The notes under the pieces: generated by a model | What the model was told of the DNA's origin: nothing | The model's input: the letters and a program-made list of their open reading frames with translations, nothing else | Databases searched by the model: none | Assembly (NCBI GenBank): GCA_000773965.1 | Contig: JRUP01000011.1 | Location: 100,034 to 164,033 of the forward strand | Origin: Enterobacter cancerogenus | GTDB taxonomy: Bacteria > Pseudomonadota > Gammaproteobacteria > Enterobacterales > Enterobacteriaceae | Direction: 5' to 3' | Length of the DNA: 64,000 bases | Shown: positions 17,576 to 18,309 of the stretch, in pieces | Layout: the number at the start of each line of letters is the position of its first letter | How positions within the stretch are numbered: the stretch's first letter is position 1 | Made by a program: the position numbers and the translations under genes

Positions 17576-17666
17576 CTGTCAATTATTCATTTGCTGTTGG
17601 ACTTAAGCGTGGGATGACGGCGCAGGCTGTGATTGTCTGGGTGCGCAGGTGATGACGCATTCTGAA

Positions 17667-17846
17667 GCCGCTTAGGGGCTGACGTCCTCACGCCGCTGAC
17701 GCGGTACCCTCACTTCATTCGCCTGCCTGACGGAACGGCGGGGGATGGCACATCCATGTGCCGCCCCGCCTTTCGCCCGCGTCCCTGCGGGCTATCCTGG
17801 CAGACTCACTCTGCTCGGCGCTGCGGATTGCCAGCCCCTAAGCGGC
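17667..17846 (+). repeat. Structured repeat element, copy 1 (15-bp terminal inverted repeats)
   Basis: A 180-bp non-coding element. Perfect 15-base ends GCCGCTTAGGGGCTG (17667-17681) and CAGCCCCTAAGCGGC (17832-17846) enclose three hairpins: CCGC-TGAC-GCGG; a compound stem GGCGGGG/CCCCGCC (17737-17743/17764-17770) around GGCACAT/ATGTGCC (17747-17753/17756-17762); and GCCCGC/GCGGGC (17775-17780/17787-17792). The core 17684-17801 is homologous, in inverted orientation, to 18161-18280. Stems differ in sequence between copies but stay paired, so folding appears to be conserved. No transposase is nearby. Confidence 0.8.
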
Positions 17847-17854
17847 CCCAGCCT

Positions 17855-18090
17855 GCTCATTAACTTCGGTGCGTTCTGCCAAAAGGGCCGCCGGCTTGTT
17901 AGATTTAATGCGTTCTGTACAAAGGCCTGGCTTTCTCGTTTGATTCAGTGTGTGCTGTAAAAGGAAAAACGACCGGCTCGTTTGATTCAATGCGTGTTGT
18001 TGAAGGATTAATCTGCTGGATTGAATCAAGGCATCCTCTCAAATTGACCTAAGTCTGCTCGGAAGCTTCAGTGTGTTTTATCAAAACGGG
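17855..18090. repeat. Degenerate tandem repeat, about six units of 34-46 bp
   Basis: Units begin near 17855, 17894, 17930, 17976, 18015 and 18057, each opening with GCT. The shared core is roughly TTTGATTCAATGCG followed by TTCTGTAAAAGG. Units three and four share CTCGTTTGATTCA. The tract fills the gap between the two inverted structured elements. The repeats are too divergent for a CRISPR array or a recent microsatellite. Confidence 0.6.
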
Positions 18091-18102
18091 CACCATATGA
18101 AT

Positions 18103-18309
18103 GGCCGTAGCACCTCTGATGCTGCAAGGGCTATCCGCAGCGCTGAGGCTTTTACGTTGTGCCAGGAGATCCACGCAGGGATGCGTGGATCAGTTCGGGG
18201 CCGACCAGGGATGGTCGATCCCCGAACGTTCCGTAGGCACGACGTGGAAGCCGAGGGCACCGCGTCAGCGGCGCGAGGACTGCCCGGCAGCAGCAGAGGT
18301 GCTACGGCC
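18103..18309 (-). repeat. Structured repeat element, copy 2 (16-bp terminal inverted repeats, opposite orientation)
   Basis: A 207-bp element whose ends GGCCGTAGCACCTCTG (18103-18118) and CAGAGGTGCTACGGCC (18294-18309) are perfect complements. Inside are GATCCACGC/GCGTGGATC (18168-18176/18183-18191), GTTCGGGG/CCCCGAAC (18193-18200/18220-18227) and CGACCA/TGGTCG (18202-18207/18212-18217). Read on the minus strand the core matches copy 1 through CGCCGCTGACGCGGT, CGGAACG, GGGGAT, TCCCTGCG, CCTGGC and CGCTGCGGAT. An ORF across it is not considered real. Confidence 0.8.

Follow-up and report, generated by a model that had tools for sequence, protein, structure and literature searches.

Two cloverleaf-like sequences, A and B, lie in opposite orientation in the window (the whole stretch of 64,000 nucleotides that was analysed), and the question is what they are. 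An earlier note on this DNA had offered a mobile structured repeat family, an RNA or a protein-bound cruciform. We think it rather probable that the pair is a non-autonomous IS4-type element (a MITE), decayed in the window, that carries paired CsrA-decoy-like RNAs. Both elements were found again, with the following parts.

17640..17666, no strand: outer flank of A, like the subterminal part of intact copies (by-eye alignment with an intact copy)
17667..17846, RNA sense on the minus strand: element A, TwoAYGGAY-type structure, with closing arms of 15 bp at 17667-17681 and 17832-17846
17691..17704, minus strand: near-invariant CCGC..GCGG hairpin on the 3′ side of the A core (sequence, conserved alignment columns)
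17737..17770, minus strand: hairpin 2 of A, inner GGCACATGGATGTGCC on the sense strand, ATGGAT loop (sequence, core alignment)
17775..17792, minus strand: hairpin 1 of A, GCCCGCAGGGACGCGGGC on the sense strand, AGGGA loop (sequence, core alignment)
17856..18088, no strand: A-B linker, five direct repeats of ~40 bp (repeat search)
18103..18309, RNA sense on the plus strand: element B, TwoAYGGAY-type structure, with perfect closing arms of 16 bp at 18103-18118 and 18294-18309
18168..18191, plus strand: hairpin 1 of B, GATCCACGCAGGGATGCGTGGATC, AGGGAT loop (sequence, core alignment)
18193..18227, plus strand: hairpin 2 of B, GTTCGGGGCCGACCAGGGATGGTCGATCCCCGAAC, AGGGAT loop (sequence, core alignment)
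18260..18273, plus strand: near-invariant CCGC..GCGG hairpin on the 3′ side of the B core (sequence, core alignment)

The arms are as the earlier note had described them. The inverted repeat that closes A is perfect over its 15 bp, and that of B extends from 16 bp to 23 nt at 96%. The shared core in opposite orientation is also real, at 28 nt and 93% in a repeat search and at ~150 bp and 72% by BLAST of the window region against its own genome (E 9e-11). The three internal stems that had been named are present; they differ in sequence between A and B and keep their complementarity in the core alignment. A and B are copies of a single structured sequence, inverted and diverged. Judged by the strands of their Rfam matches, the two cores point apart, with the 5′ sides inward. 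The repeats between them look, by eye, like an expanded A-B linker of other copies. A protein-coding reading was rejected, the ORFs over the elements overlapping on both strands.

The structure is already known in Rfam. A cmscan of 951 bases matched both elements to RF01731, the TwoAYGGAY RNA (described in the available part of PMC2864571), with E-values of 9e-7 for B and 2e-4 for A. With Infernal, B scores 48.9 bits on the plus strand, above the gathering score of 43, and A (17723-17799, minus strand) scores 38.8 bits, below it. RF01731 is the sole Rfam family above its gathering score within the window, and no CsrB/Rsm model passes. The likeness to the family lies in the score of B and in two adjacent hairpins with AYGGAY-type loops, which were found in an alignment of 47 sequences that includes both window copies (one short row of the 46 references was left out). 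The difference is that A and most named relatives tested score below the threshold. Among the matches listed, the threshold caught one of 18 loci not titled Pantoea, in Mixta; as it now stands it misses most named relatives tested. In the available passages on TwoAYGGAY, the RNA is connected neither with a mobile element nor with copies in pairs, and relative to those passages the link to mobility is new. No title or abstract start describing the element was found in the literature covered, which left subscription journals largely outside.

The earlier note had called for a search for further copies, and these were found in the window genome as well as in other Enterobacterales. The 5.67-Mb window genome holds 13 RF01731 matches at E up to 0.001, and BLAST found more A- or B-like copies. 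The A-linker-B composite is present in nine fetched stretches of this genome, the window's included. An RF01731 match was found in 36/60 genomes, the window genome among them (31/36 in its genus, 5/24 outside), and a 636-bp composite query matches 42/60 genomes of that genus. The window region also matches 46 plasmid records, all Pantoea. Searches of the window region against phage and E. coli collections gave no DNA match, and a phage or E. coli origin of the pair was set aside on that account. One record titled Escherichia coli strain E69 has a diverged core (L337:3010-3163, 61.1 bits).

The mobile unit is best seen in relatives within the genus, where the element has 18-bp IS4-type terminal repeats and no transposase gene. 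The intact element is ~563 bp in P. agglomerans, with A-linker-B inside these ends, and two-core copies elsewhere in the same genus are about 520-630 bp. The ends are inverted repeats like TAATGCCAGTCAGTTAAG. Twenty copies from three genomes (G081, G066, G026) have the same two ends and unrelated flanks; one of them, L127, has an internal deletion. The copies of G081 are 95-97% alike at different sites, with the same ends. Among P. agglomerans plasmids, a site between MFS-transporter and ABC-transporter genes is polymorphic, with the whole element, none, or deleted forms. In the 60 of 70 matching records that were listed, nine cover 98-100% of the query and two cover 90-91%, and twelve cover 70%, their span in the record being shorter by about 583 bp. 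Ten alleles were read. Six have the element, three are empty and one has the nudI gene instead; among the six, A is lost between its arms in two and a B hairpin is lost in two, and one has both. The mobility of the element is well supported. It is an IS4-type MITE with a divergent pair of a known structured RNA as cargo. The idea of a mobile structured repeat family thus holds as to movement and not as to the unit, which, where intact, is A plus linker plus B within IS4-type ends rather than each cloverleaf. The nudI allele (L057) has that gene in place of the element at the same intergenic site in other P. agglomerans plasmids.

Loci were searched for both ends, TAATGCNNGTCAGTTAAG, with up to 4 substitutions, which gave 59 element rows and 8 IS4 rows; within the 59, L194 is counted three times, with different choices of left end, and some sites recur in several forms. 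A target duplication was defined as at least 8 bp with one mismatch allowed. Duplications of 10-14 bp flank 32/59 two-ended rows, and 27/59 have none of 8 bp or more. When the empty sites were rebuilt, 20/32 rank among the best-folding 5% of flank windows and 23/32 have an A- or T-run. Strong fold and run occur together in 15/32, against a background of 0.2% of 5360 windows. The target is mostly a hairpin apex, often that of a rho-independent terminator. There are exceptions. For L192 and L053 the empty sites fold less well than the median background window, and in L195, L197 and L217 the target is a palindrome with no A- or T-run. At the polymorphic site, a clean duplication is missing from four of the five two-ended forms, and in the fifth, L053, the rebuilt site fails to fold.

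A possible source of transposase is found in G068, a related genome. It has nine PF01609 matches, eight of which are 459-aa open frames inside 1421-bp elements (L178, L182, L184-L189), and a 367-aa stretch of the L178 frame matches NF033592, the IS4 family. The ends of these eight copies match the query end except at 2 positions, and all eight are flanked by duplications of 10-13 bp. Their empty sites have a best-5% fold in 7/8, an A- or T-run in 8/8 and both in 7/8. According to the available part of PMC2266710, the IS4 subgroup has ends of the form -AATR--------WTW and duplications of 10-13 bp, with strong insertion specificity for some members; the words 'terminator' and 'MITE' are absent from its main text. 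The ends and duplications of our element fit this description, and the G068 IS4 shares near-identical ends and targets with it. The element differs in that it lacks a transposase gene and that its cargo is a divergent pair of structured sequences. Since the IS4 of G068 has nearly the same ends and shares the targets, we infer that an IS4 transposase acting in trans would move the element. PF01609 has no match in the window genome. It was not found in G000, G081, G018 or G009, all of them copy-carrying; the enzyme is thus lacking in genomes whose copies seem recent, and movement in those four would need one since lost or brought in.

By homology of its A-linker-B, the window copy is assigned to this element, and A and B would be two halves of one decayed copy. 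It has neither ends nor a target duplication; no end lies within 5 substitutions of TAATGCCAGTCAGTTAAG in the copy with 300-bp flanks (L135). By eye, the outer flank of A is like the subterminal region of intact copies and the outer flank of B is unlike it. Four other stretches of the window genome keep one weak end (L128, L130, L143, L145), and weak end-like matches in this genome show a modest excess, 95 against 58 in the control. Since its ends are decayed and its linker has turned into a short tandem array, the window copy is probably immobile, with hairpins and GGA loops intact. Tandem arrays of 24-35 bp occur at the outer flank of A in the copies L001, L010, L131 and L132 of the same genome, and their unit resembles the outer end of A. 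Taken with the repeated linker in the window, these arrays suggest that some portions of the element expand into minisatellites. In L004/L133 an 8-bp tandem repeat, TTAAGCAG, lies outside the outer end of B, as does another short tandem repeat in L132.

Related cores reach beyond the genus. A covariance model built from the 47 cores matches in 53/198 Enterobacteriaceae genomes (43/154 genera) and, at the level of the order, in 18/197 genomes; of these 18, seven belong to a single genus of another family, and several of the rest match weakly. When named genomes were scanned with a DNA pattern, at least 117 stretches came up, and in 63 of the 80 listed there is a model match at E up to 0.001. 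The matches listed include records titled Serratia, Pectobacterium, Dickeya, Enterobacter, Klebsiella, Mixta, Tatumella and Erwinia; chance may account for the weakest match, in an actinobacterium (L354). In the relatives examined in other Enterobacteriaceae, the flanking modules are different. It is quite possible, if somewhat doubtful, that A and B had their own means of spreading, as cores elsewhere in the Enterobacteriaceae may have, and came to lie between IS4 ends by capture in the genus of the window. Diverged cores with other flanking modules across the family would fit such a history, as would the arrangement of neighbouring cores: the 133 typed rows among the family matches listed have 13 close pairs, 9 tandem and 4 divergent, and one of the 4 divergent pairs is in the window's own genus. 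Such a history is, however, compatible with the MITE reading of the window pair. Among the matches listed in named loci, adjacent matches are divergent in 32/38 (4 are ++, 1 is -- and 1 is +-), and 28/38 are in Pantoea-titled records. The 32/38 had suggested an outward promoter in the linker, which may exist but is doubtful, as no sigma-70-like site was found and tandem close pairs exceed divergent ones among the family matches listed. In L254, L272 and L282-L301, from other Enterobacteriaceae, a GC-rich hairpin follows the related core, and such sites are numerous in each genome.

The earlier note had claimed that the fold is conserved rather than the stem sequence. From 199 distinct cores, 107 were kept after removal of 92 near-duplicates; a crude rule made 59 of them A-like and 48 B-like, with some rows mixed. 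Doubly changed cells number 217 against a maximum of 93, and 360 against a maximum of 156, in 200 shuffles. The stems do covary beyond the maximum of the shuffles, and this, with the cmscan E-values, rejects a chance origin of the pair.

Covariation of this kind could also arise if the element were mobile only and A and B were DNA palindromes, kept paired by template-switch repair between the arms and serving no purpose as RNA. Like DNA palindromes, the arms and hairpins are indeed prone to deletion (A is lost in two strains, a B hairpin in two), and a promoter scan found no sigma-70-like promoter in an intact copy or the window region. Repair from arm to arm would be strand-neutral, yet parsimony gains are 40 for G-U and 17 for A-C (p 0.0016, pairs predicted from both strands, RIBOSUM folds). 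The excess has p 0.054 in the A-group alone and p 0.01 in the B-group. It was not significant in an earlier test with fewer common pairs (p 0.19-0.34), and a strand-neutral fold, which gave a noisy structure, counted G-U 67 against A-C 40 (p 0.006). The sense strand folds lower in 45/59 and 42/48 cores. The apical loops are also one-sided. GGA stands in at least one apical loop of the sense strand in 47/47 cores, and in two or more in 39; on the antisense strand the count is 0/47. Among 48 chosen matches outside the window genome's genus, the corresponding numbers are 47, 43 and 0. In addition, CCAGGA, GGTCCG and GAAGG are highly conserved in the core alignment outside the hairpin stems. We consider the palindrome explanation unlikely. 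The asymmetry of G-U over A-C argues for a TwoAYGGAY strand constrained as RNA, and selection at the RNA level is moderately supported. As between the RNA and the protein-bound cruciform of the earlier note, this asymmetry and the one-strand GGA loops favour the RNA. L054, L055 and L056 are alleles of one site that have lost A or one B hairpin, losses of the kind that replication across DNA palindromes would produce.

If the strand is an RNA, the loops may point to CsrA. Rfam clan CL00106 holds RF01731 together with CsrB and RsmW, and the window genome has csrA and one CsrB above the cut-off. The motif CA(N)GGA(T/C)G has a mean of 1.55 copies per core (minimum 0), compared with 0.09 in shuffled sequences. 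In the available part of PMC7652899, the CsrB repeat is CAGGA(U/A/C)G and the SELEX consensus is RUACARGGAUGU; most SELEX ligands had four or fewer contiguous pairs, and a very stable structure might be a drawback. The stems that flank the loops here often exceed these four pairs. The B copy of P. agglomerans L112 scores 31.1 with RsmW, where 52 is needed, and common descent with CsrB is unsupported, as the covariance model scores only 11.1 bits on E. coli csrB. That TwoAYGGAY RNAs bind CsrA is not a new idea, having been proposed in Clostridia (PMC4333381, in the part available). Passages of PMC5864184 and PMC9788540 concern CsrA-related sRNAs. The likeness to CsrB/CsrC and RsmX/Y/Z/W lies in the GGA of the hairpin loops and in the clan common to CsrB and RsmW. 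The difference is that our element is dispersed in many copies, is a predicted binder and has no known promoter; each element structure has two GGA hairpins, whereas CsrB binds about 18 CsrA subunits. Another parallel is RrA/RrB/RrF of E. coli. In the available part of PMC8144298, RrB, a GGA-loop RNA from read-through of the first terminator, binds CsrA in vitro; these RNAs belong to three rRNA operons, and that part mentions no mobility.

For the element, insertion would split a terminator, and upstream transcripts would then run into it. The copy in sense orientation would be transcribed and would fold, and the folded RNA could bind CsrA, a regulator of translation, either as a decoy or as a 3′-UTR site, like the CsrB/Rsm RNAs. 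A putative function as CsrA decoy is the leading reading of the RNA.

The same insertion sites would suit an RNA element that acts in cis. REP, BIME and REPIN sequences are dispersed intergenic palindromes with units of 20-40 bp in alternating orientation. Our copies are likewise dispersed intergenic palindromes in alternating orientation, although their cores of ~150 bp, inside IS4-type ends, are far from 20-40-bp units. As proposed for REP, the element might replace the invaded terminator as a stabiliser or attenuator in the 3′-UTR and not titrate CsrA. Insertions in terminator-like hairpins are in keeping with this, and at the B end of P. agglomerans L112 a hairpin is framed by A- and T-runs and shows a good fold in reverse (z -2.8; forward z -1.0). 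A pattern scan, however, found no terminator in the intact copy L052, and a role in cis would leave the conserved GGA loops and the clan relation to CsrB unexplained. We regard it as improbable. An integron attC site was considered for the likeness of GTTAAGC to the attC core and discarded once IS4-type ends and 10-14-bp duplications were found.

An orphan Rfam RNA family is hereby tied to a moving element, with CsrA as a candidate partner of the RNA and split terminators as its candidate route of expression, both open to test. A broader and more speculative proposal, which we would call doubtful as a whole, is that the family, largely below the Rfam threshold and in 53 of 198 Enterobacteriaceae genomes, may be a mobile CsrA sponge, with transposons multiplying decoys in terminators. 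If so, copy number would tune a global post-transcriptional regulator. Should the decoy step be true, a genome with tens of copies would be able to set that regulator through a mobile dial dependent on copy number, and differences in copy number between strains could be tested for motility, biofilm and carbon storage.

Two further observations concern single loci. A CRISPR-DR4 repeat lies near a core copy in another genus (L258:1137-1164). In G013, an inverted repeat with arms of 138 nt (93%) surrounds a TwoAYGGAY-like core (L014:100-442), and this core has the best RF01731 score among the 60 genomes.
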